Virus record (IMG/VR): IMGVR_UViG_3300031884_000979
Coordinates: 1-20,562 of that record
From: a virus
Strand: one strand, 5' to 3'
Length of the DNA stretch: 20,562 bases
The position numbers and the translations under genes were made by a program. The notes below the pieces were generated by a model, which made no database searches, was not told the origin of the DNA, and saw only the letters and a program-made list of their open reading frames with translations. Shown here in pieces: positions 2,766-18,067 of this stretch. The stretch's first letter is position 1, and the number at the start of each line of letters is the position of its first letter.

Positions 2766-3926
2766 TTAAATCCCGTACTTGTTCTTTTTAGGTATAGCTA
2801 CAACACTTTGTTTATTTGTGTCGTGTGTTTCTCTGCTACGCATATCACTTAGTTTTTTAATAGGGCCAGCCATTGTTTCTTTAGCGGCTTGTTTAATGAT
2901 GTCATATTCTTCATCGGTGAATACTGATAATAATGGATCGCCTGCAATCGCACCAGCGGCAGGAGTAGTAAATGTATTCTTACCATCGGCCGCAGCCATA
3001 GCAATACCAAAGCGATACTGTTGATATGAACTACCATTAGACTTGTTCTGACTAATGCCAGGAAGGCTCATTCCACCTTTAATAGCTGAAATTACCGATT
3101 CGTCATCCATTCTTTTTAAATCAGCGCCAATATCTTCATTTATAAAATCTTTAGCTCTCATGTCTCTTATTACCTTATTAGCATATTTAACCGAATTAGA
3201 ATCTTCGTTTGTCGGAACACAGTTAGGTACAGTTTTACCCGCCTTCTTTTTAGTGCCTACAGGATGGTAACCCTTCCAGCAAGGATTTGAGTTACGTAGA
3301 CTTTTCTTTGTTTCAGCTACAGCTTTTTCTTTCTTAACACGTTTAACTTTTTCAGGATGTAATCCGCATGCTTCTGCAACAGTTTCAAAGTAGCTTTTTC
3401 CATGTACTTTTAAATTAGGATCTGTGCCCGATGCTTGATAAAATGCTTGTTCATCGCCTGCACGAGCCGCATTTCTTAATGCAGTTGCACTACTAACTCT
3501 TGGACTTTCTACGTGTATAATGTTAGCAAAATTAAAATAACCATGCTCGCTTTTTTTACCATTGTATTGTTGTAGTAATTTACCACTCCACGCCCAATCT
3601 TGAGAATCAGTTACATAAGCAACAGTTGCGCCATCGCCTACTTGTTGGTATATTTTTGAAGCAAGTGTAACAATACTCTTTTCGCCGATAATGTGTCCTC
3701 GAACACTTGGATCTATTGCTTCCATCCAGGCTGTTTTAATGTCAAATGATAACGGATCGTTTGGTCCGATAGTACTAGGATTTGTGCCAATGTACCAGTG
3801 TTGGCCAGCATGTTTAACTGCTTCCCATACTTTAGCATGTCCTTGATGTGCAGGATTGAATCGACCAAAGCAAAATGCCACGGTTGCTTTATGATGTGCG
3901 GTTTCGAATAGTTGTCTTAATCTCAT
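2766..3926 (-). CDS. Nucleotidyltransferase (HxGH) domain fused to tagged C-terminal domain
   Basis: This is a 386-aa protein. The frame opens with TTG at 3935, but ATG 3924-3926 overlaps the upstream stop as ATGA and gives MRLRQLFE|T, a CTS-like N-terminus. Residues 13-170 form a cytidylyltransferase/NMNAT-type domain: GRFNPAHQGH (21-30) carries the HxGH nucleotide-binding motif and SSATALR (145-151) matches the family's ISSTxxR motif. Substrate specificity cannot be read from this. Residues 203-205 (VAE) may be another protease site. A Cys-containing motif NPCWKGY...VPNCVP (214-238) follows. Residues 256-386 start with a second tag, MRAKDFINE, and duplicate the domain of the 145-aa neighbour, ending in the same KKNKYGI. 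The architecture suggests an enzyme packaged in the head and separated from its C-terminal domain by the prohead protease. Confidence 0.75.
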   Translation of the reverse strand: MRLRQLFETAHHKATVAFCFGRFNPAHQGHAKVWEAVKHAGQHWYIGTNPSTIGPNDPLSFDIKTAWMEAIDPSVRGHIIGEKSIVTLASKIYQQVGDGATVAYVTDSQDWAWSGKLLQQYNGKKSEHGYFNFANIIHVESPRVSSATALRNAARAGDEQAFYQASGTDPNLKVHGKSYFETVAEACGLHPEKVKRVKKEKAVAETKKSLRNSNPCWKGYHPVGTKKKAGKTVPNCVPTNEDSNSVKYANKVIRDMRAKDFINEDIGADLKRMDDESVISAIKGGMSLPGISQNKSNGSSYQQYRFGIAMAAADGKNTFTTPAAGAIAGDPLLSVFTDEEYDIIKQAAKETMAGPIKKLSDMRSRETHDTNKQSVVAIPKKNKYGI

Positions 3927-5149
3927 GGTACCCAAGCCGGAATAGTATTGCCTGTTGGCGTTTCGATGTCATGACGAGGAACAAGTTTAATATGTTCACT
4001 ACCTCGTTTGTCGTAATGTACCCAACCTTCGCTGTTGGTAACTTTAATTTCGCCAGGATCTGCGTCTAGTTGTGCAATAATCTGATTCTTAAGATTCATA
4101 ATATCAGAAAATAAACTAAACATTGCAGTTAATCCGCCAGGGAATTGATTTACACGTTCTGCAATTTTTTGATATTGTCCAGGACTGACTACATTAGTGT
4201 TAGTCTGAATCCAGTTCATAAAATTATGAGTTACATTATGTAAGTTACCTTCCTTAGCCATAGTGTTTACATAACGATAGATTATATTCTTAAATCCAGC
4301 AACACCTGGTAATGGACTTAATAATCCATCAATCTCACCGGCATGCTTGCTAATTCGTTTTTCAACACCATTAATAGCAGATGTATCTATTTGTGGTTGT
4401 ATTTGTGTATAGTATGGACCTAACACAATTACATCTTGCACGTTGTTATCAATGTAAGGTGTGAAATCTTCTACAGCTTTCTGTGCTTCATCAGGCGAAC
4501 CAAACTCTGTAAACATACCATGCCCTACCATCATAGCATGCGCCTTAGATATTCGTTGACCTAATTCAGTATCCTGTGCGATATGATAAACAGTTTGGCT
4601 TTTTGGATTAGGATGCAAATTGTATACACCACGTGCATCAACCATAGGCTTCTTTAAAAATAATCCATCTGCATAGAAAAATAAACTTTTATTTTTGCCT
4701 GGCTTTTTAGTAGCTTTTTCTAATAACGGGTGTAGGAATGAAAACTCACTAGCAAACATTTCTCTTTGCTGTTGTTCTTCTGCTGATTTAGGACTTCCAC
4801 TTCGATTTAAAATGAAGTTACGTATACCATGTTGGTTTGTAAATTCGCTGACATCACTAGTGCCACTGCCACCACGCAACCAACCATTATGGTTTGCTAC
4901 TATAAATTGATGATTTGCAGTTTCAGGATTCCAGTACCATCCCCAATATACTTGAGGAGCACCATCCCATTTTAATCTCACACCTTTTGAATTGCCACCT
5001 ATAGCTTTGATATGTTCCAATGCCTTGATAGCGCCTTGGCTACCATTCATAAATGTTAAATCTTCGGGGTGATTAAATGCTCTACCTACTTTCTTTTTAA
5101 CAGGTTCAGCATCTTTATTTTCTCGTAAAAATAACTCTCTTAGTAACAC
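3923..5149 (-). CDS. DNA/RNA ligase-superfamily-like KxDG protein
   Basis: This 408-aa protein starts at GTG 5147-5149, with AAGGA about five bases upstream. The N-terminus LLRELFLRE|N is CTS-like. Residues 60-63 are K-W-D-G within a GVRLKWDGAP block, matching nucleotidyltransferase motif I (KxDG, with Lys as the adenylation site) of ligases. Near the C-terminus, EGWV (374-377) and IKLVPR (387-392) resemble ligase motifs IV and V, and a hydrophobic-ADG segment at about 157-162 may correspond to motif III. The canonical Arg two residues after KxDG is absent. Similar KWDGAP proteins occur, as far as I recall, as uncharacterised families in marine T4-like phages. A ligase-fold nucleotidyltransferase is therefore an inference. 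The stop overlaps the next start (ATGA). Confidence 0.65.
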   Translation of the reverse strand: MLLRELFLRENKDAEPVKKKVGRAFNHPEDLTFMNGSQGAIKALEHIKAIGGNSKGVRLKWDGAPQVYWGWYWNPETANHQFIVANHNGWLRGGSGTSDVSEFTNQHGIRNFILNRSGSPKSAEEQQQREMFASEFSFLHPLLEKATKKPGKNKSLFFYADGLFLKKPMVDARGVYNLHPNPKSQTVYHIAQDTELGQRISKAHAMMVGHGMFTEFGSPDEAQKAVEDFTPYIDNNVQDVIVLGPYYTQIQPQIDTSAINGVEKRISKHAGEIDGLLSPLPGVAGFKNIIYRYVNTMAKEGNLHNVTHNFMNWIQTNTNVVSPGQYQKIAERVNQFPGGLTAMFSLFSDIMNLKNQIIAQLDADPGEIKVTNSEGWVHYDKRGSEHIKLVPRHDIETPTGNTIPAWVP

Positions 5150-5601: not shown

Positions 5602-6225
5602 TTAATTTTTAACTATCCGCTCTACTTTAGCTATGCTTCCGCCCAGATGCATTTTAGCTAGCAGTAAGTTATTTTCACCAGTGATATAAAAGTGTGTGCC
5701 GCCCCAACTGCGTGTTTTTTGTAAATCTCTAATGCAACTCTTAGTTAACTTGCATTTTTTATTAGTTTCAGCCCATGATATAAAAGAACTATTTTCATGA
5801 TTAGTTTTTCCAAGAGTAATACGAAATTCATAGTTCATCTTGGGCATAACAATGGTATTTTCAGTAAGACTGCTGTTAGGAGCAGGCATTGAAACATATT
5901 TTACTTTAAGTTTATCTAGTTTAGATAGCGTATCTATGTCTTTTTTAGAGTTTGAATAAATCGAAATCCACGGACTTTCTACCCGTACATCTAAATCTTG
6001 CATACGACTAAGTGTATTTGCAAGATTTAGAGCATAATCTAAATCATCTTTTGATTTAATGTGTGCATTATACTTTAAAGAATTTTTATTTAAATTAATC
6101 TTTTTTAATTCTTCAAAAGTAGCAGACCAATCTCCACTTCGAAACATAGATGCACCGGCGCATACCAATACTATTTTGTACTGGTATAGCCCCCGGAATA
6201 AACTTCTAGTAGTTTTATACAACAT
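5602..6225 (-). CDS. Conserved protein of unknown function downstream of clpA
   Basis: This 207-aa protein has no domain I recognise with confidence. The N-terminus has a basic-aromatic stretch (SLFRGLYQYK) followed by a hydrophobic strand IVLVCAGASMF (residues 18-28), suggesting an alpha/beta fold. The middle has alternating charged helices. The C-terminal 60 residues contain SCIRDLQKTRSWGGTHFYI and LLLAKMHLGGSIAKVERIV blocks that look well folded. The ATG at 6223-6225 overlaps the end of clpA by 11 bp, so the gene is probably translationally coupled and belongs to the dnaJ-def-clpA transcription unit. It might be an adaptor or a target of that system, but nothing in the sequence proves this. 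Confidence 0.65.
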   Translation of the reverse strand: MLYKTTRSLFRGLYQYKIVLVCAGASMFRSGDWSATFEELKKINLNKNSLKYNAHIKSKDDLDYALNLANTLSRMQDLDVRVESPWISIYSNSKKDIDTLSKLDKLKVKYVSMPAPNSSLTENTIVMPKMNYEFRITLGKTNHENSSFISWAETNKKCKLTKSCIRDLQKTRSWGGTHFYITGENNLLLAKMHLGGSIAKVERIVKN

Positions 6226-8494
6226 GTTGTTCAGTATCTACCGATTCTGCAGAATCAACTGTTAGCAAAGGTAATTTAGGACCTTTAGGAGTTGGAATCA
6301 GCACCAATGCATCATCTGCAACAGTAATAGACAAAGTTCCACCGTTTTTCAAATCACCGAATAGCATCATTTTTGCTAGAGGACGTTTGATTTTTTTATC
6401 AATTACACGTTGTAATGGACGAGCACCCATTTTAGGATCGAATCCTTTGGCAATAAGCCAATTAGTACTTTCCTTATCTAGTTTGACCTTAATACCTTTA
6501 TCTTTAACTTGAGCACGTAACTCGTCTATAAATTTAACAACGATTTTAGTCATTGTTTCTTTAGCTAGTTTATTGAATGTAATAATACCATCTAAGCGAT
6601 TACGGAACTCAGGAGTGAAAAACTTCTTAAGATCCTTGTCACTGTAGTCTTTTTCTTGAGTACCAAATCCAATAGTGTTCTTTTCAGCATCTTGAGCACC
6701 AGCATTTGTAGTAAGAATAAGAATTAAGTTACGGCAATCTGCTTGTTTTCCATTTGAACCTGTAATAAAACCATTATCCATCATTTGTAGCAACACAGTT
6801 GATACATCTGGATGTGATTTTTCTACTTCGTCAAACAACAATACAGCATTAGGATTCTCTTGAATCTGTGTAATCAACAAACCTGCGTTTTCTTCAAAGC
6901 CAACATAACCTGGAGGGCTACCGATTAGCTTAGAGATGCTATGCTTCTCTTGATATTCACTCATATCAAAGCGTAACAACTTAACACCTAAGTGTTTAGC
7001 AAGTGATTTAGCAGTTTCAGTCTTACCAGTTCCAGTTGGACCCATGAAAACAAATGAACCAATAGGGTTGTTCTCGGATTTAAGTCCGGCTTGTGCAACA
7101 ATAATCTTATCAACAATTTCTGTTAGAGCAAGATCTTGACCATAAACTTCAGCTACAAGGTTATCTTGTAGAGTAGCAAGGTTGCTAGATTCAGTTTCCA
7201 TGATTTTTTCTTCAGGCATTTGAATCATTTTAGCAAGTTCGTATTGAATTTCACGTTCGCCAATAACACGGTCATCTGCTAGTTTAAGATTAAAACGACT
7301 ACATGCCACATCGATCAAATCGATTGCTTTGTCTGGTAGTTTTTTGTCTGTTTGATACTTAACTGACAATTTAACAGCCGCTTGAATTGCATCGTTGCGA
7401 ATCTTAACGTTGTGGAATGTTTCGTAGTACTTTTTAATACCTTGTAAAATACTAACAGACATTTCTTGTGTAGGCTCGTCAACAGTAATGCGTTGGAAAC
7501 GACGCATCAACGCACGATCCTTTTCAAAGTGCTTGCGATATTCTTCCCAAGTAGTACTTGCCACAACTTTAATGTTGCCTTTGCTTAGAGCAGGTTTCAT
7601 CATATTAGCGAGATCGTTAGCAGAGTTGCTAGCAGATCCTGCGCCAGAGATCATGTGTGCCTCGTCGATGAACAGCACAGTCTTACCTTTCTTTTGTAGA
7701 GCTTTAATAACATGCTTGAAGCGTTCTTCAAAGTCTCCGCGATATTTGCTACCAGCAAGCATAGCACTAATATCTAAACTGTATACTTTATAATCCTTAA
7801 GGAAATCAGGAACAGCACCGTTCACGATGTTATAAGCAAGTCCTTCTGCAATAGCAGTCTTACCTACACCTGGATCTCCTACTAAAATAACATTGTTTTT
7901 ACTGCGACGACCCAATGCTAGTGCAATATTTTCTAGTTCGTCTATACGTCCAATAACAGGGTCTACTTTCTTTTTAGTAACCATGTCATTCAAGTTAGAA
8001 GTAAATGCGGCTAATGCACGTTCGCCTTGGCTATCTGCCGGGCCATCTTCTTCTGCCGCTTCAACATTGTTATTAACAAAGTCGTTAAACTTATCTTTAT
8101 CAATGTCGGATTTCTGAATGTAATATTGTGCCCAACTGCGTTTTTCGCCCATCATGGCTACAAAAATATCAGTAGGCTCTATGCGTTGACGCCCATTAAA
8201 CAAGGTTTGTGTAAACGCACGATTAAGTACACGTTCAACTGCTTGTGTCTTTTTAGGTTTAACTACAACATCTTGTATGGTAATTTCTCCACACTTATTC
8301 TGTAAGTAGTCGGTTAATTCTTTTTTCAATTCGTCTGCGTTAGCACCGAAACTTTTTAAAGTACCGGCAAACCCATCTTCCATCAGCATAGCAAACAATA
8401 AATGTTCTATTGTTAAGTATTCGTGATGCAATTTTTTAGCAGTATCAATTGCTTGCTCAAATATTGCTTGTAAATTATCACTTGGTTCTACCAT
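6215..8494 (-). CDS. clpA: ClpA-type AAA+ unfoldase
   Basis: This 759-aa protein has the same length as E. coli ClpA (758) and the same order of parts. A double Clp N-domain covers about 1-145. AAA+ domain D1 has Walker A GDPGVGKT (206-213), Walker B LFIDEAH (274-280) and a pore loop around GSKYRGDFE. Domain D2 has Walker A GPTGTGKT (485-492), Walker B LLFDEVEK and pore loop GYVG (529-532), and is followed by a C-terminal small domain. There is no ClpB-type coiled-coil insertion, so it is not a disaggregase. An I-G-F tripeptide (608-610) sits where ClpA/ClpX carry the ClpP-docking IGL/IGF loop. ClpP itself is not in this window, so host ClpP is the likely partner. The gene overlaps def by 17 bp and the downstream 207-aa gene by 11 bp. 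Confidence 0.95.
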   Translation of the reverse strand: MVEPSDNLQAIFEQAIDTAKKLHHEYLTIEHLLFAMLMEDGFAGTLKSFGANADELKKELTDYLQNKCGEITIQDVVVKPKKTQAVERVLNRAFTQTLFNGRQRIEPTDIFVAMMGEKRSWAQYYIQKSDIDKDKFNDFVNNNVEAAEEDGPADSQGERALAAFTSNLNDMVTKKKVDPVIGRIDELENIALALGRRSKNNVILVGDPGVGKTAIAEGLAYNIVNGAVPDFLKDYKVYSLDISAMLAGSKYRGDFEERFKHVIKALQKKGKTVLFIDEAHMISGAGSASNSANDLANMMKPALSKGNIKVVASTTWEEYRKHFEKDRALMRRFQRITVDEPTQEMSVSILQGIKKYYETFHNVKIRNDAIQAAVKLSVKYQTDKKLPDKAIDLIDVACSRFNLKLADDRVIGEREIQYELAKMIQMPEEKIMETESSNLATLQDNLVAEVYGQDLALTEIVDKIIVAQAGLKSENNPIGSFVFMGPTGTGKTETAKSLAKHLGVKLLRFDMSEYQEKHSISKLIGSPPGYVGFEENAGLLITQIQENPNAVLLFDEVEKSHPDVSTVLLQMMDNGFITGSNGKQADCRNLILILTTNAGAQDAEKNTIGFGTQEKDYSDKDLKKFFTPEFRNRLDGIITFNKLAKETMTKIVVKFIDELRAQVKDKGIKVKLDKESTNWLIAKGFDPKMGARPLQRVIDKKIKRPLAKMMLFGDLKNGGTLSITVADDALVLIPTPKGPKLPLLTVDSAESVDTEQHVV

Positions 8495-8981
8495 TACGTT
8501 TCCTTTGTTTTTTAATTGCTAATGCTAACTTTAATGGACTAATCTTGTTTGTAAAACAAACTCCATTTAAATGATCCAATTCATGTTGGAAACATCTAGC
8601 GTCCATGCCCTTTAATTCTATTATACACTTATTTCCGCTTCTGTCAAAGTATTCGGCAGTAAGTGAACTATATCTTTTTACCTTAAGCCATAATTCTGGA
8701 AAACTTAAACAGCCTTCCTCACCTTCTACTAGCGGTTGGTTATTGTCGACAATTAATATCCTAGGATTAAACATACAAAAAGGAACCTGCCCATCTAGAT
8801 GAATAGCAAAAACTCTTTTTGTAATACCTACTTGATTAGCGGCAAGCCCACGACCGTTTGAAGTGATCATAGTTTGAACCATGTCTATTTCAAATTCTTT
8901 AGCATCTGGATCTTTTTCAAAATCCCACGGATCTGCAATTTGTTTTAAGACAGGATCATTGTCTTTTACTAAGTTCAGCAT
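8478..8981 (-). CDS. def: Peptide deformylase
   Basis: This 167-aa protein removes the N-formyl group from nascent bacterial and phage polypeptides at the ribosome exit. All three diagnostic motifs are intact: GRGLAANQ (43-50), EGCLS (89-93, with metal-ligand C91) and HELDH (133-137, with two metal-ligand His and the catalytic Glu). The length is normal for a bacterial type I enzyme, so this is not the strongly shortened form seen in some phages. The C-terminal helix is basic. The start overlaps the end of dnaJ by 26 bp and the stop overlaps clpA by 17 bp, so it sits in a tightly coupled chaperone/protease operon. A role in supporting rapid phage translation is the simplest reading. Confidence 0.95.
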   Translation of the reverse strand: MLNLVKDNDPVLKQIADPWDFEKDPDAKEFEIDMVQTMITSNGRGLAANQVGITKRVFAIHLDGQVPFCMFNPRILIVDNNQPLVEGEEGCLSFPELWLKVKRYSSLTAEYFDRSGNKCIIELKGMDARCFQHELDHLNGVCFTNKISPLKLALAIKKQRKRNGRTK

Positions 8982-9816
8982 CTAATTGTCGCAATCTTTC
9001 TATTATTACTGGATCAACAATGGTAGGAGTTTTAATTTTAACAACTGAAATAAACCTTCCTTTACGGCCAGAGTTTACATTTGGGAATCCGTTTCCATGA
9101 CTAGCAAATTCAGTACCAGTTTCAACACCGCCTCGTATCTCTAAATCTAACGTAGTACCTGCTAAGGTTTTGATTTTCTTTTTACAACCTATCATAGCTT
9201 CAATAGGACTGATTTCTACATTAGTATATACATCGTCTCCTCGACGGTCGTATGCAGGATCTGGGATGACTAAAATTGTAACATTGAGATTTCCACGAGA
9301 CGCACCTTGCACACTATCGTCACCTAATCCAGGATATCGTATAGTATCGCCATGTGTAACACCTGCTGGTACATTAATAACTACATTTTGATTTCGGCCA
9401 CTAGGCAAATTGTAATTTGCTTCTAGTTGTTTACCGTTAAACGAATCGATAAAACTAATAGAACATTGGATATTTAAATCACGATTTCTTCGTTGAGCTT
9501 GAGGATGCATACGTCCAAATATGTCTCCGAATGGATGTCCTTGGCCAAAGCCTTGCCCAAACATATGGCCAAACGGGTCAAATCCGTCAGTGTGAAATCT
9601 AACTTGAGGACCATTGCCATACATACGTTGCTGATCGTATTCGGCTTTCTTTTGCGGATCGCTTAGGTTATCATAAGCGACTGATATATCTTTGAATTTG
9701 GCTTGATCTCCACCCTTGTCTGGATGATGTTTATTAGCCAAGCTTCGGTATGCTTTTTTAATTTCGTCTGGGCTAGCATTTTCGCTAACACCTAGTGTTT
9801 GGTAATAATCAATCAT
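8956..9816 (-). CDS. dnaJ: DnaJ-family (Hsp40, CbpA-like) co-chaperone
   Basis: This 286-aa protein has an N-terminal J domain (1-70) with the HPD motif at 31-33, which stimulates Hsp70 (DnaK) ATPase. A Gly/Phe-rich linker (about 78-106) and two beta-rich C-terminal substrate-binding domains (from about 113) follow. The CxxCxGxG zinc-finger repeats of classical DnaJ are absent, so it is a type II/CbpA-like protein. No DnaK is in the window, so it would work with host DnaK. ATG 9814-9816 has GGAG somewhat far upstream (12-base spacing). It is the first gene of the operon dnaJ-def-clpA-orf207 and is preceded by a perfect sigma70 promoter. Confidence 0.93.
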   Translation of the reverse strand: MIDYYQTLGVSENASPDEIKKAYRSLANKHHPDKGGDQAKFKDISVAYDNLSDPQKKAEYDQQRMYGNGPQVRFHTDGFDPFGHMFGQGFGQGHPFGDIFGRMHPQAQRRNRDLNIQCSISFIDSFNGKQLEANYNLPSGRNQNVVINVPAGVTHGDTIRYPGLGDDSVQGASRGNLNVTILVIPDPAYDRRGDDVYTNVEISPIEAMIGCKKKIKTLAGTTLDLEIRGGVETGTEFASHGNGFPNVNSGRKGRFISVVKIKTPTIVDPVIIERLRQLDAELSKRQ

Positions 9817-13541: not shown

Positions 13542-14261
13542 ATGAGTAAACAACGAGTGAAAAAGCGTTTTACATCAGAAGTTAACATAATTGATTTCCA
13601 GCCGTATCTTCCGGCGAAAAAGCAACGTGTGAGCATTAATGCACGTAATGCCAATCAAAAACTCTATCTCAGCAAATTGTATTCAGAGTCCACTAGCATA
13701 GTACTTGCTATTGGTCCTGCCGGCACGGGTAAAACCATGTTGGCTGTACAGTTCGGGGTTAAGTTATTTCAGGAAGGCAAGGTTGATAAGATAATTGTGA
13801 CAAGACCCGCCGTGTCCGTAGATGAGGATTTAGGATTTTTACCAGGTGACTTAAATGAAAAGATGGCACCTTGGACAAGACCTATATTTGATGTCTTGGG
13901 CGAATACTATCAAACTAAGGAAATAGCAAAAATGCTAGAGGAAGGTGTTATCGAGATAAGCCCACTTGCGTATATGCGTGGACGCACATTTAAGAACGCA
14001 TACATAGTTGCAGATGAAATGCAAAATGCCACAGTAAATCAAATGAAAATGCTACTAACCCGTCTAGGAGAGGGAAGTAAAATGGTAGTAACAGGAGATT
14101 TGGCACAAGCAGACCGATTGAGCGATAATGGTCTGATTGATTTTTGCAACCTACTCAACAAACAAGAATATTTAGAGCATATTGATATAATTCAATTTGA
14201 TGCTCAAGACATCGAACGCCATAATGCCGTGAAGGAGGTGTTAGCGGTTTATGGAGAATAA
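13542..14261 (+). CDS. phoH: PhoH-like ATPase
   Basis: This 239-aa protein belongs to the PhoH family of P-loop NTPases. Walker A is GPAGTGKT (58-65), followed by the family blocks KIIVTRPAVSVDEDLGFLPGDLNEK and PLAYMRGRTF. Walker B is at IVADEMQNAT, with downstream MVVTGDLAQADR. The length is typical of phage PhoH. PhoH is widespread in marine phages; its cellular role is not settled, though RNA-related activities and phosphate-starvation links are reported for relatives. It is the only plus-strand gene here, transcribed divergently from the lysis unit and convergently with the kinase/nucleotidyltransferase gene. The start is fixed by AGGAG at 13529-13533, which lies inside a hairpin. Confidence 0.92.
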   Translation: MSKQRVKKRFTSEVNIIDFQPYLPAKKQRVSINARNANQKLYLSKLYSESTSIVLAIGPAGTGKTMLAVQFGVKLFQEGKVDKIIVTRPAVSVDEDLGFLPGDLNEKMAPWTRPIFDVLGEYYQTKEIAKMLEEGVIEISPLAYMRGRTFKNAYIVADEMQNATVNQMKMLLTRLGEGSKMVVTGDLAQADRLSDNGLIDFCNLLNKQEYLEHIDIIQFDAQDIERHNAVKEVLAVYGE

Positions 14262-14336: not shown

Positions 14337-15125
14337 TTAGATACCCAACTCTTTACGAATCTTAGTAGCACTAATATCGGTTACTGTTTCATCAAATGTT
14401 TCTTCGCCGGATGTGTATCCAACACCACGTCCCCATCCAATATGTACAATGTTAGGAACAACTTGTATTTCATACTGTCCTTGATATAACGGGTCTAAGT
14501 CACGTTTGATAAACGATTTGACTTTTTCTACTTCAAATGGATTACTACCTTGCCATCCTTGTACATCACGTACTTGAATAACAACTTGTCCTGTGCGTTC
14601 AAGCAGACGTTCAAATAATGCGCGATGACCATCGTGCCACGGTTGCCAACGTCCTAGCATCTGTACAGTTTCCTTCTTCCAATCAAATACAGGACGTCTA
14701 CGATTATACAAAATATGTTCAGCAATAAAGTCTGCCCATTTTTCTGCCGCTTGTTCTGTAATGCGAAAGTCGTATATCTCAGGTTCTTGGAACATGGCAT
14801 TAGTATCTGCGTAACGTCCTTCCCTAATAGTATCTACCCAGATAGTCCAATCTGCTTTGAAGTTGTTACGCATCTCAACTAAAGGTGCAACAAAGTCAGC
14901 AATAGCATAATCACCATCAAGTTTGTCAGCAAGCTCACGCATACGATTACTTTGTCTAATTCTGCCCGCTTCACTAAAATCCCAATCATTGTATTCCGAT
15001 CTAACTCTATCAGCATTAAGCCAAACAGTCTTTTTATCGTGTGCATCTAAACAAGATCGCAATCGCTCTGCTAGTGTGGTTTTACCAGCACCTGGCAATC
15101 CCATAATTAATATTCGTTGTGTCAT
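14337..15125 (-). CDS. APS-kinase-like domain fused to HxGH nucleotidyltransferase domain
   Basis: This is a 262-aa fusion. Residues 1-145 resemble adenylylsulfate kinase (CysC): Walker A GLPGAGKTT (9-17), VWLNADRVRSEYNDWDFSEAGRIRQSNRMRELAD (like the CysC DxDNxR...DLGFS..DR region), an IADFVAPLVEMR block and TIWVDT. That enzyme phosphorylates APS to PAPS. Residues 152-262 are a compact nucleotidyltransferase domain with GRWQPWHDGH (158-167, HxGH) and ISATKIR (251-257). ATP sulfurylase belongs to the same superfamily, but this domain is far shorter, so its substrate is open. The start overlaps the sulfotransferase-like gene's stop (ATGA), suggesting a shared pathway. A nucleoside or sugar kinase is the alternative for the first domain. 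Confidence 0.82.
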   Translation of the reverse strand: MTQRILIMGLPGAGKTTLAERLRSCLDAHDKKTVWLNADRVRSEYNDWDFSEAGRIRQSNRMRELADKLDGDYAIADFVAPLVEMRNNFKADWTIWVDTIREGRYADTNAMFQEPEIYDFRITEQAAEKWADFIAEHILYNRRRPVFDWKKETVQMLGRWQPWHDGHRALFERLLERTGQVVIQVRDVQGWQGSNPFEVEKVKSFIKRDLDPLYQGQYEIQVVPNIVHIGWGRGVGYTSGEETFDETVTDISATKIRKELGI

Positions 15126-15706
15126 TTATATCTCTCTGTAACAGCATTTATAATTAATGGATAATTAGATGGGTAAGGAGTTTTTACCGCTAGTACCTGA
15201 GGGTGTAATAATGGAGAGAATGTTTCGTACACCATGGTTGCATCTGTTTGAAGATTGTTGACAATATTATTATCATACTTTACCATGTTTATACAATAGT
15301 CGATTTTTTCTAAATCAATATCAATAGGGCGATTATAATTATCGCCTTCCGATTGTTTATCGGAATAAAACCACATATTTCGAAAATATGCAACATAATG
15401 ACTGGCTATTTGAAATATTATGCTATTTCTTTTTAATTTAATAGTGAAACATTCTGGAGAAAATACCTTTTCCATATACCAATCAGGCATACTTGCTATG
15501 CTACTACCTAGAATTTTTAAAATATAACGATTAGTTGTTTTAGAGAATTCTAAAAACTCTGCCAATTGATCAGGAGTGTAGTTAGGCTCGTTAAAAAATC
15601 TTACCTCTAATGTTTTTTCTAAATGATGCCCAAGTGCCCCACTACCACATCTTGGAGGGCTTATTATAATAATTGGTAATTTTGTAAACTCTGGAATTTG
15701 AAACAT
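15122..15706 (-). CDS. Sulfotransferase-like protein
   Basis: This 194-aa protein has an N-terminal strand and P-loop-like motif PIIIISPPRCGSGALG (11-26), matching the 5'-phosphosulfate-binding PRSGT-type loop of PAPS-dependent sulfotransferases. FFNEP (37-41) follows. The block TIKLKRNSIIFQIASHYVA (88-106) matches the 3'-phosphate-binding region (R93 and S102; pattern LxRxxxxxQxxS, as in Stf0-like enzymes). It is shorter than most sulfotransferases (250-300 aa), so the acceptor-binding part is reduced. It starts 1 bp after the clamp-loader stop and overlaps the APS-kinase-like gene, whose product could supply PAPS. The acceptor is unknown; host surface glycans or phage structures are possible. 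Confidence 0.72.
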   Translation of the reverse strand: MFQIPEFTKLPIIIISPPRCGSGALGHHLEKTLEVRFFNEPNYTPDQLAEFLEFSKTTNRYILKILGSSIASMPDWYMEKVFSPECFTIKLKRNSIIFQIASHYVAYFRNMWFYSDKQSEGDNYNRPIDIDLEKIDYCINMVKYDNNIVNNLQTDATMVYETFSPLLHPQVLAVKTPYPSNYPLIINAVTERYK

Positions 15707-15707
15707 C

Positions 15708-16622
15708 TTAGAGATAACTTAATCGAATTAAAGTAGCCGCAAGATTAATTTCTGGATCAATTACTAGTGTATGATCTACTAAACCTTGTTTAATAATCAA
15801 GATTGCTTTGTCTTGTACAGACTCTTCACCGAAAATTTCTATGTTATCGTACAACCAACGATAAACTTCTTCCATTTCTTCTGGACGAGCCTGACTGCAT
15901 ACTAGTTTACGTGCTTCGGCAATCTTTCCTGCCTTGAATAATGCAACCATTTCTAGTTTATAATCTTGTTCACCAGTATCACCTTTCTCTGGACTGTGCA
16001 AATTACCATCTAAACTGTTCATTTGAACGGTGTTAATACACTTACGCAAGTCTGGATACGTTGCTTTGACAAATGTGTCCAGTGTATCCAAGTCGAATTC
16101 GACATTTTCTTCTACTAAGATAGTAGCAACACGAGCAGTAAACTCTGTAATGTCCACTCTTTCGATATGGAATCCCTGACATCTGCTATGTAAAGCAGGA
16201 ATAATACGGTTAGGATAGTTGCAAGTAAGAATAAAACGTGCAGTGGTGTGATATTCTTCCATAACTCCACGCAAGGCCGCCTGAGCATTTGGGGACAAAT
16301 AGTCCGCCTCGTCTAATAGTACTACTTTAAAATCTCCGAATGGAATCATCCGGACAAAGTTTACAATTTTATCTCTAACATCTTCTACGCTATTTGTTCT
16401 ACTAGCGTTAATTTCTAAAATATCTAAATCGTTTAAGTCTAGTTCGTGAAACAAAATTTTAGCAAGGGTAGTTTTACCGATACCAGCATTTCCACTAAAC
16501 AATAAATGCGGAATTGATTTTTGTTTGATCCATGCTTGGACTTGTTCTTTTTGATGCGCATCTCTGAATACATATCCATCGATAGTATTAGGACGATATT
16601 TTTCTACCCATAGTTCTCTCAT
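15708..16622 (-). CDS. 44: Sliding-clamp loader large subunit (T4 gp44 type)
   Basis: This 304-aa AAA+ ATPase opens the ring clamp and loads it on primer-template DNA in the phage replisome. Start ATG 16620-16622 gives MRELWVEKYRP, the classic opening of gp44/RFC proteins. It overlaps the upstream stop as ATGA and has GAGGA before it; the in-frame start 27 bp upstream is rejected. Walker A is GNAGIGKT (44-51), Walker B LLDEAD (102-107), sensor 1 lies around FILTCNYPN and the SRC motif at 146-148. A helical collar domain fills the C-terminus. The small subunit gp62, polymerase and clamp are not in this window. Confidence 0.93.
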   Translation of the reverse strand: MRELWVEKYRPNTIDGYVFRDAHQKEQVQAWIKQKSIPHLLFSGNAGIGKTTLAKILFHELDLNDLDILEINASRTNSVEDVRDKIVNFVRMIPFGDFKVVLLDEADYLSPNAQAALRGVMEEYHTTARFILTCNYPNRIIPALHSRCQGFHIERVDITEFTARVATILVEENVEFDLDTLDTFVKATYPDLRKCINTVQMNSLDGNLHSPEKGDTGEQDYKLEMVALFKAGKIAEARKLVCSQARPEEMEEVYRWLYDNIEIFGEESVQDKAILIIKQGLVDHTLVIDPEINLAATLIRLSYL

Positions 16623-16813
16623 ACTAATTCCTCTAAAATTCCTAAACACTCAGCTAGACCTAAAAAGCCCGCTGATACTTTAAGCCATGCTCCCATCAAA
16701 ACAGGATCTGAGCCTGCTAGGAATAGTGTTACAAATGCGGTTAATCGCAGGAAACTTTTTGCCAGGCTTACATAAAAATGACCTTGACTTGTGTCTTTAG
16801 GTTGAATTTCCAT
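16619..16813 (-). CDS. Small membrane protein coupled to the clamp-loader gene
   Basis: This 64-aa product has a polar N-terminus (1-16) followed by two hydrophobic stretches (about 20-34 and 38-60, Leu/Ala/Gly/Val rich). It therefore probably spans or lies in the inner membrane. It has a strong AAGGAGA before ATG 16811-16813 and its TGA overlaps the clamp-loader ATG, so it seems translated and coupled. It directly follows a sigma70-type promoter and is the first gene of the unit. It does not resemble gp62. The function is unknown. Confidence 0.6.
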   Translation of the reverse strand: MEIQPKDTSQGHFYVSLAKSFLRLTAFVTLFLAGSDPVLMGAWLKVSAGFLGLAECLGILEELV

Positions 16814-16885: not shown

Positions 16886-17302
16886 TTATTGTTCGAAACT
16901 TGGTCTAGCAAATGTACTAGGATCGAATGTTGCGTGTGACACTTTAGAATGAGATCCGTGTGTATTCAACATGTTTTCTTCTGGCTTTTCGTCAGTGACT
17001 ATTAAAATTGCGTTCGGATCACCACGGCGAATAACAATATCATTGCCATCGTCATCTAACACAGTAAATCCGCGACTCCAACGGCCATGCTCTAGTAAAA
17101 TCCATTCGCCTGCTTTTACGTCTTTTTGTTCAGGCCCAACTGCATGCACTTTACCCCAACGGTGTCTAACACCTTCGGACTTACCGTCATCACTGAGAAT
17201 AACAATACCACTTTTGGTTTTTACTTCATCAAAGTTCATATCAGTAACAATAATATTATTACGGATCGGCTTTAATTTGCTTAATAATACTTTCCTACTC
17301 AT
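16886..17302 (-). CDS. GroES-like co-chaperonin (gp31-type)
   Basis: This 138-aa protein fits the GroES fold: LSKLKPIRNNIIVTD (start of the beta barrel), then a loop with KSGIVIL (30-36), whose hydrophobic residues match the mobile-loop position that binds GroEL. GKVHAVGPEQKDVKAGEWILLE (50-71) and NAILIVTDE (97-105) follow. T4 gp31 replaces GroES so that the major capsid protein folds inside host GroEL. The barrel is followed by a polar tail of about 30 residues (107-138), longer than in GroES. Its start overlaps the upstream stop as TAATG and a terminator follows. A distant GroES relative of different use is possible, but the layout fits well. Confidence 0.78.
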   Translation of the reverse strand: MSRKVLLSKLKPIRNNIIVTDMNFDEVKTKSGIVILSDDGKSEGVRHRWGKVHAVGPEQKDVKAGEWILLEHGRWSRGFTVLDDDGNDIVIRRGDPNAILIVTDEKPEENMLNTHGSHSKVSHATFDPSTFARPSFEQ

Positions 17303-17557: not shown

Positions 17558-18067
17558 TTATCTCAGGAATTCCTGCCAGTCTAAATTATATTTGACAGAA
17601 TCTATTTGATGTACACCTAGCAAATATAACACAAAACTAGCTACACTAGAACCCCTTCCTACACCCCATACTATGCCATTTTCGTTGCAAGTATCCACAA
17701 AATGTTTAGTCCATTGTAGTAGTGGAATCATATGACGTTCTTGGTAAGCAGTCATTTCAGCATTAACCCGGGCAATTTGCTCTGGAGTTGTACATCGATT
17801 TAAACACCATTCTTTTACATCGAAATCTCGATATTCTTCTGGCATAAACCAGTCACTTTGTAGAGCTTGATCAAAGTCTGCTATGTCAATAGATTCTATT
17901 TGTTCATTAAACCGATGAAACGAAAAGCCAGCAGTTTCCTGCAACTGTTCAATGTCTTCAGTATAATCTACTGTAAGATCTTTGAGGTTGGTTAACTTTC
18001 CTTGATATAGGAATTTGAATATATCGACGGAATTAAAAATAGGATTACCGAATTTATCTAGGCGCAT
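17558..18067 (-). CDS. Short DNA polymerase III alpha-like protein lacking catalytic aspartates
   Basis: This 169-aa protein ends with a stretch that closely matches the palm entry of bacterial replicative DnaE/PolC: GIVWGVGRGSSVASFVLYLLG (131-151), then IDSVKYNLDWQEFLR. In DnaE the equivalent GPGRGSGAGSLVAY...[22 protein letters not shown] continues to the catalytic Asp residues. Here the frame stops right after the FLR, so the metal-binding aspartates are missing. The N-terminal 110 residues (MRLDKFGNPIF...) have few clear matches, although part may be the linker to the polymerase core. The natural stop and intact spacing suggest a maintained small protein rather than random decay. It cannot be a polymerase by itself. 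The Shine-Dalgarno sequence is weak. Confidence 0.72.
   Translation of the reverse strand: MRLDKFGNPIFNSVDIFKFLYQGKLTNLKDLTVDYTEDIEQLQETAGFSFHRFNEQIESIDIADFDQALQSDWFMPEEYRDFDVKEWCLNRCTTPEQIARVNAEMTAYQERHMIPLLQWTKHFVDTCNENGIVWGVGRGSSVASFVLYLLGVHQIDSVKYNLDWQEFLR

Follow-up and report, generated by a model that had tools for sequence, protein, structure and literature searches.

A freshwater virus encodes a 262-aa protein in which an APS-kinase-like domain is fused to a small HxGH nucleotidyltransferase domain, and we read this protein as a probable PAPS synthetase, compact and non-canonical, with the nucleotidyltransferase in the place of ATP sulfurylase. It likely activates sulfate as a minimal enzyme with two functions, its HxGH domain being predicted to turn sulfate into APS and its kinase domain APS into PAPS, with the PAPS passing to a sulfotransferase. 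Mechanistically, the C-terminal HxGH domain (NMNAT-like, ~110 aa) would make APS from ATP and sulfate, i.e., would constitute an ATP sulfurylase outside the Sat and CysDN families, and the N-terminal APS-kinase-like domain would phosphorylate the 3'-OH of APS to yield PAPS. PAPS would then serve the virus as sulfuryl donor to a sulfotransferase, for which the product of an overlapping 194-aa gene is a possible candidate in this case. The enzyme's roles would thus lie in supplying sulfotransferases in phages and in APS chemistry in bacteria. Both catalytic activities, sulfate as the substrate and the part played by the 194-aa protein are put forward as predictions, and it is solely the genomic contexts of the fusion and its relatives that point to bifunctional PAPS synthetase activity within one chain.

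The window, i.e., the whole stretch of DNA analysed, is a virus record of 20,562 bases. The features at issue are the following:

14337..15125, minus strand: 262-aa APS-kinase-like/HxGH nucleotidyltransferase fusion; intact ORF, predicted compact PAPS synthetase

14691..15125, minus strand: APS-kinase-like domain, residues ~1-145 (Pfam APS_kinase, PDB profile matches, Foldseek)

14340..14678, minus strand: small HxGH nucleotidyltransferase domain, residues ~150-262 (motifs, weak NMNAT family matches); predicted ATP sulfurylase activity

15122..15706, minus strand: 194-aa sulfotransferase-like protein; intact ORF (Sulfotransfer_3, E=0.09)

15708-16649: clamp-loader gene flanking the ORF pair (PHROG 168, E=4e-78)

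13542-14261, opposite strand to the pair: PhoH-like gene on the other flank, identified by reading

The original prediction had described two ORFs joined by an ATGA overlap, one of them a kinase-nucleotidyltransferase fusion, and this layout was confirmed: both ORFs are intact, the stop codon of the 194-aa ORF overlaps the start of the fusion, and Pfam APS_kinase scores above its gathering threshold. A second domain of about 110 residues with an HxGH motif is likewise present (residues ~150-262, with HDGH at 164-167).

Established for the fusion are its domain make-up, the homology and modelled fold of its kinase domain, and the conservation of the core APS contacts. Pfam APS_kinase (PF01583) matches fusion residues 5-91 (E=1.1e-10; 42.2 bits against a gathering score of 21.1) and covers model positions 5-94 of 152, and a 39-sequence profile searched against solved structures found APS kinases as the best matches of the N-terminus (E=3e-13). 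NCBIfam also returned APS kinases for this region, all sub-threshold, with the APS kinase equivalog domain TIGR00455 at 32.5 bits versus a cut-off of 138.7 and the best match, PRK05541, far below its own cut-off. The domain contains the P-loop GLPGAGKT, the motifs NADRVR, DFS, GRIRQ and FVAP, and a short rebuilt lid (RYADTNAMFQEP). An AlphaFold model of the fusion from a 50-sequence alignment reached a mean pLDDT of 89.8, and in a Foldseek search of the PDB its best 47 matches comprised APS kinases and PAPS synthetases exclusively, several of them solved with APS bound.

Whether the APS-binding residues are present was a question raised in the original prediction. The APS contacts of Mycobacterium tuberculosis CysC include K456, D480, R483, F492, R497, K562 and F576 (PMC4373884). 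Mapped by HMMER alignments and by spacing via shared motifs, as opposed to superposition, the first five align to fusion K15, D39, R42, F50 and R55, which are conserved in 50, 50, 50, 49 and 49 of 50 relatives, respectively; the core contacts are thus kept. The lid that bears K562 and F576 in CysC is shortened in the fusion and rebuilt as RYADTNAMFxEP, so that F112 (49/50) and R104 (46/50) are no more than tentative candidates for replacing, respectively, the second Phe and the Lys in the APS site. In addition, 47 of the 50 relatives have Asn in place of the first Asp of DGDN; in PAPSS1, mutating the first and second Asp of this motif together abolished APS kinase activity (PMC11697783). The kinase domain is predicted to convert APS to PAPS.

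The nucleotidyltransferase is the better conserved of the two domains among viral members. Pfam CTP_transf_like matches residues 158-185 (E=0.018), and HDGH (164-167) and ISATKIR (251-257) are near-invariant in 50 relatives, with H164, G166, H167, S252, T254 and R257 kept in 45-50 of 50, these motifs being common to the whole HxGH superfamily. Also near-invariant are GRWQPWHDGH and GRGVGY, the latter with the family form GR(D/G)VGY. Archaeal-type NMN adenylyltransferases are the nearest named families: NMN adenylyltransferases were the best C-terminal matches of the 39-sequence profile against solved structures (E ~1e-6), and the NCBIfam matches to them were sub-threshold (TIGR01527, 23.4 bits versus a cut-off of 181.2; NF002243, 23.7 versus 127). 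That kinship is one of two points in favour of NAD salvage, in which the fusion would join a nucleoside kinase to an NMN adenylyltransferase, NadR-like but in the opposite order, and would restore NAD during infection; the other is that the gene overlaps a NADAR gene in Stenotrophomonas/Xanthomonas phages (Pfam 4e-26, L084). We hold this explanation to be quite unlikely, since the kinase matches APS kinases and not NadR (E=0.024 in the same profile search), since the cysI-cysH, aprBA, sulfotransferase and DUF2061 contexts described below have no NAD link, and since the cysI-cysH operon lies in a genome without CysD or Sat matches.

Canonical ATP sulfurylases carry QxRN as their sulfate motif, which is missing from the nucleotidyltransferase domain; GRxQPxHxGH stands there instead, as in NMN adenylyltransferases. 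The 25 top-ranking Pfam matches of the fusion did not include PF01747, the Sat family, and an hhalign comparison of the domain with SAR11 Sat was weak (probability 25%). Judged on its sequence, the domain is not to be classed as a member of the Sat family. Its GR(D/G)VGY loop precedes ISATxIR and recalls the GRDHAG...ISGT order of SAR11 Sat sequences, which is a resemblance and not a test. An ATP sulfurylase-like function is therefore a reading that we draw from genomic context. One could instead propose that the kinase alone works in sulfate metabolism, on host-supplied APS, and that the HxGH domain is regulatory or performs some other adenylyl transfer, given that the evidence for the kinase is the stronger and that the nucleotidyltransferase has no canonical sulfate site and a profile that only weakly resembles Sat. 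This appears unlikely to us, as the nucleotidyltransferase is, in the viral proteins, conserved more strongly than the kinase and as the pair is present in SAR11 and in a further genome (G198) where no Sat or CysD was found; under this proposal, APS would be left without a source in the cysI-cysH operon of that genome.

Relatives of the fusion are widespread. The full-length protein belongs to PHROG 10255 (E=7e-50), at least 598 stretches in IMG/VR viral contigs encode relatives, and five phage records (hosts given as Stenotrophomonas, Xanthomonas and Clavibacter) contain full-length versions of ~40% identity. A scan of bacterial genomes turned up homologues in many Pelagibacteraceae and also in some Alphaproteobacteria outside that family, e.g., Bradyrhizobium and Reyranella. 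Numerous SAR11 genomes encode the two domains as distinct ORFs that overlap (in L118, of 136 and 124 aa), hereafter the pair. In one SAR11 locus (L171, 8001-8761), the stretch after the kinase has stops in the kinase frame, being either a separate overlapping ORF or a broken gene. Viral sequences like that of the window fall next to those from SAR11 when the tree is rooted at the midpoint, with support of 1.0 for the joint clade and 0.71 for the viral clade. As for viral surroundings, the fusion overlaps its upstream gene in Casjensviridae phages (L084, 4565-5741; L085; L086; L088), the gene in L084 encoding a NADAR-domain protein (Pfam 4e-26). In other viruses (L004, L005, L012, L014 and relatives), it sits in islands rich in radical SAM genes that also hold NodU-type carbamoyltransferase and SGNH-hydrolase-like genes.

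The genomic contexts are established observations. In G198 (L213), the gene order is a sirohydrochlorin-chelatase-like gene, cobA, cysI, cysH, DUF2061, kinase and nucleotidyltransferase, with cysI matching at 1e-212 and cysH at 9e-74, and with cobA, cysI and cysH each passing at least one curated NCBIfam cut-off. No match to CysD or Sat was found in the G198 genome, and the pair thus holds the sulfate-activation place of the assimilatory operon, an arrangement seen in this one genome. In five SAR11 loci (L094, L095, L119, L121, L125), aprB and aprA lie up to ~5 kb downstream of the pair (aprA, 2e-298; aprB, 3e-56), with a TauE-type sulfite exporter in the L121 locus. Pfam sulfotransferases above cut-off are encoded a few kb from the pair or fusion in L097, L100, L102 and L103 (SAR11) and in L107, L109 and L155, directly adjoining it in L100, L102 and L103; aprA over cut-off was not found in the SAR11 genomes of L097, L102 and L103. 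In another SAR11 locus (L118, 8004-13424), kinase and nucleotidyltransferase are followed by a HalD-like protein and then by methanethiol oxidase (SBP56) and ferredoxin, which suggests a wider organosulfur linkage.

DUF2061 adjoins the phage fusion in ~26 of 80 viral loci and sits between kinase and nucleotidyltransferase in L155. In bacteria, it is also fused to CysN-CysC (L206) and to CysN (L205), fusions which suggest that DUF2061 is a sulfate-activation-associated membrane protein. The fusion to CysNC bears on a further proposal, i.e., a parallel pathway that handles a different oxyanion or group, in which the nucleotidyltransferase would make a nucleotide-activated acid and the kinase would 3'-phosphorylate the product. 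The cytidine diphosphoramidate kinase of Campylobacter capsule synthesis provides a precedent for 3'-phosphorylation of a nucleotide-activated group. The kinase's best NCBIfam match, far below cut-off, is PRK05541, and carbamoyltransferase and radical SAM genes share islands with viral copies, both of which observations fit such a pathway; however, aprBA and cysI-cysH operons handle APS and PAPS, not amidates, and DUF2061 is fused to CysNC, making this proposal very improbable. The NadR-like and CDP-amidate-kinase-like readings are thereby ranked below a PAPS synthetase. The PAPS-synthesis half of the original prediction is well supported, by the APS kinase fold matches and the conserved APS contacts as well as by the cysI-cysH, aprBA and sulfotransferase contexts in genomes without canonical ATP sulfurylases.

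Most SAR11 are without ATP sulfurylase although SAR11 AprAB peptides are expressed, and AprAB there serves sulfite oxidation (2023 paper, PMC10356861). Of 35 pair-bearing SAR11 draft genomes, 3 gave a Sat match, none a CysD match and 25 an aprA match over cut-off. An even sample of the SAR11 order (148 draft genomes, with a strong pair match defined as E below 1e-30) gave Sat in 7, aprA in 112 and a strong pair in ~110. Counts transcribed by hand from the match tables gave pair and aprA together in 101, pair alone in 9, aprA alone in 11 and neither in 27, an association with an odds ratio of 27.5 and a nominal Fisher P of 1.7e-13, uncorrected for shared ancestry. Five further class-level genomes with the pair include G198; four are without CysD and Sat matches, a count to be read with no background rate, and the remaining one has a CysD-like match below cut-off.

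As relatives of the fusion lie in sulfur operons of SAR11 that are without the usual first enzyme, the pair may be the missing enzyme there, and we regard it as the best candidate for the missing SAR11 ATP sulfurylase. We lean, by a modest degree, towards a broader proposal: that the NMNAT-like HxGH domain is an unrecognised type of ATP sulfurylase which, with its kinase partner, forms the missing sulfate/APS enzyme of SAR11 and came to many phages in the form of a 262-aa PAPS synthetase supplying phage-encoded sulfotransferases. SAR11 are among the most abundant ocean bacteria, and with a conserved candidate whose genes lie near aprBA in certain SAR11 lineages and, elsewhere, within an operon for assimilatory sulfate reduction, their ATP sulfurylase gap becomes directly testable through a single small protein.

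The sulfotransfer half of the original prediction is no more than plausible. The 194-aa protein does carry the motifs it named, PPRCGSG (the start of a 5'-phosphosulfate-loop-like motif) and LKRN...QIAS; however, the Sulfotransfer_3 match is far below the Pfam cut-off (E=0.09; 13.4 bits versus 27), reaching E=5.2e-4 when a near-identical contig was searched as a single record, and the gene is not stably linked to the fusion. For the 194-aa protein, no NCBIfam, PHROG or credible PDB match was found, nor any match in a direct search of a phage database. A homologue of 27-29% identity occupies the same slot of another virus (L009) and keeps many residues and the motif outline (LKRN...Q..S), by which the 194-aa ORF belongs to a real, if rare, gene family. 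Viral scans with the 194-aa protein, the two-member alignment and the L009 homologue returned near-identical contigs and L009/L091/L212 alone. The family stands beside the fusion in few of ~80 related viral loci, with a dCMP-deaminase-like or unrelated gene filling its slot in other viruses. A model of the 194-aa protein from a two-sequence alignment reached a pLDDT of 51.8 and gave no significant fold match; such a model is unusable, and the fold search is therefore meaningless.

Across the 50 fusion-bearing viral records, 14 with a Sulfotransfer_3-like match outside the fusion were tabulated (excluding L082, a near-duplicate of the window), most of these matches falling below the Pfam cut-off, and in 10 of the 14 the match lay within 2 kb of the fusion. 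With similar arrangements collapsed by hand, four of eight types were within 2 kb, versus ~0.45 expected (P=6e-4). This clustering makes a general link between the fusion and sulfotransferase-like genes in viruses likely, the 194-aa protein being a candidate for the specific partner in the window. Sulfotransfer_3 matches in G503, G511 and one of G485 lay inside the fusion and were discarded as P-loop false positives; c40, c53 and c105, considered as viral sulfotransferase-like neighbours, were dropped as PHROG and Pfam gave no confirming match.

It is a serious possibility, if the lesser one, that the fusion is a PAPS synthetase and the 194-aa protein a chance neighbour, with PAPS going to host enzymes or to other phage genes. 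The confinement of the 194-aa family to near-identical contigs and L009/L091, the other genes that fill its slot in other viruses, and the poor model (pLDDT 51.8, no credible fold match) all fit chance proximity, whereas the ATGA overlap, the presence of a family member at the equivalent position in L009 (29% identity), and the clustering of other sulfotransferase-like genes near the fusion in other viruses argue for partnership. On its motifs, the 194-aa protein is plausibly sulfotransferase-like and a putative partner of the predicted PAPS synthetase; phage sulfation of a host glycan, like superinfection exclusion, is speculation.

In comparison with known systems, animal PAPSS1/2 likewise combine an N-terminal APS kinase fold with a C-terminal HxGH-superfamily domain in one chain, and a full-length animal PAPS synthetase (1x6v) is the second-best fold match of the fusion model. 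The likeness in domain order to these enzymes stated in the original prediction holds; the second domain of the fusion is ~110 aa as opposed to ~400 aa, is not PF01747, is without a PUA-like domain and has GRxQPxHxGH in place of the Sat-type motif, making the two analogous and not orthologous. The bifunctional Sat/APS kinase of the Aquifex 2gks type (kinase profile match, 3e-11) has the opposite domain order and a canonical Sat domain. Bacterial CysD/CysN with CysC (and CysNC fusions) perform the step proposed here, with the pair in the sulfate-activation place of the cysI-cysH operon and DUF2061 associated with both the pair/fusion and CysN/CysNC; the pair, however, involves no GTPase and no CysD, its adenylyltransferase being of the unrelated HxGH type. 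Archaeal/NadM-type NMN adenylyltransferases share GRxQPxHxGH, ISxTxxR and weak profile matches with the nucleotidyltransferase, which differs in scoring far below curated cut-offs, in its invariant GR(D/G)VGY and in its sulfur contexts. PHROG 10255, the fusion's own family, is annotated as "kinase" alone, naming neither a second-domain function nor sulfate activation, and we found no description of a compact PAPS synthetase of this architecture in the open-access literature. The predicted function is most likely that of a compact PAPS synthetase of new architecture, common to phages and SAR11. If true, this PAPS synthetase would be unusually small, and its presence would suggest that phages provide sulfuryl donor of their own.

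Elsewhere in the window, a second, separate HxGH nucleotidyltransferase is encoded at 2766-3935 on the minus strand (PHROG 3041 "cytidyltransferase", 2e-14), and the end of its long C-terminal tail resembles the adjoining ORF at 2327-2764. A 169-aa protein (17558-18067, minus strand), near a GroES-like gene at 16886-17302, has as its sole match a Pol III alpha fragment (PHROG 11127). Host-like genes lie at 1887-2327, 8478-8981, 8956-9816 and 6215-8494, all on the minus strand; the set includes a ferritin/Dps-like protein and a peptide deformylase, both confirmed by Pfam, as well as DnaJ-like and ClpA-like proteins assigned by reading.
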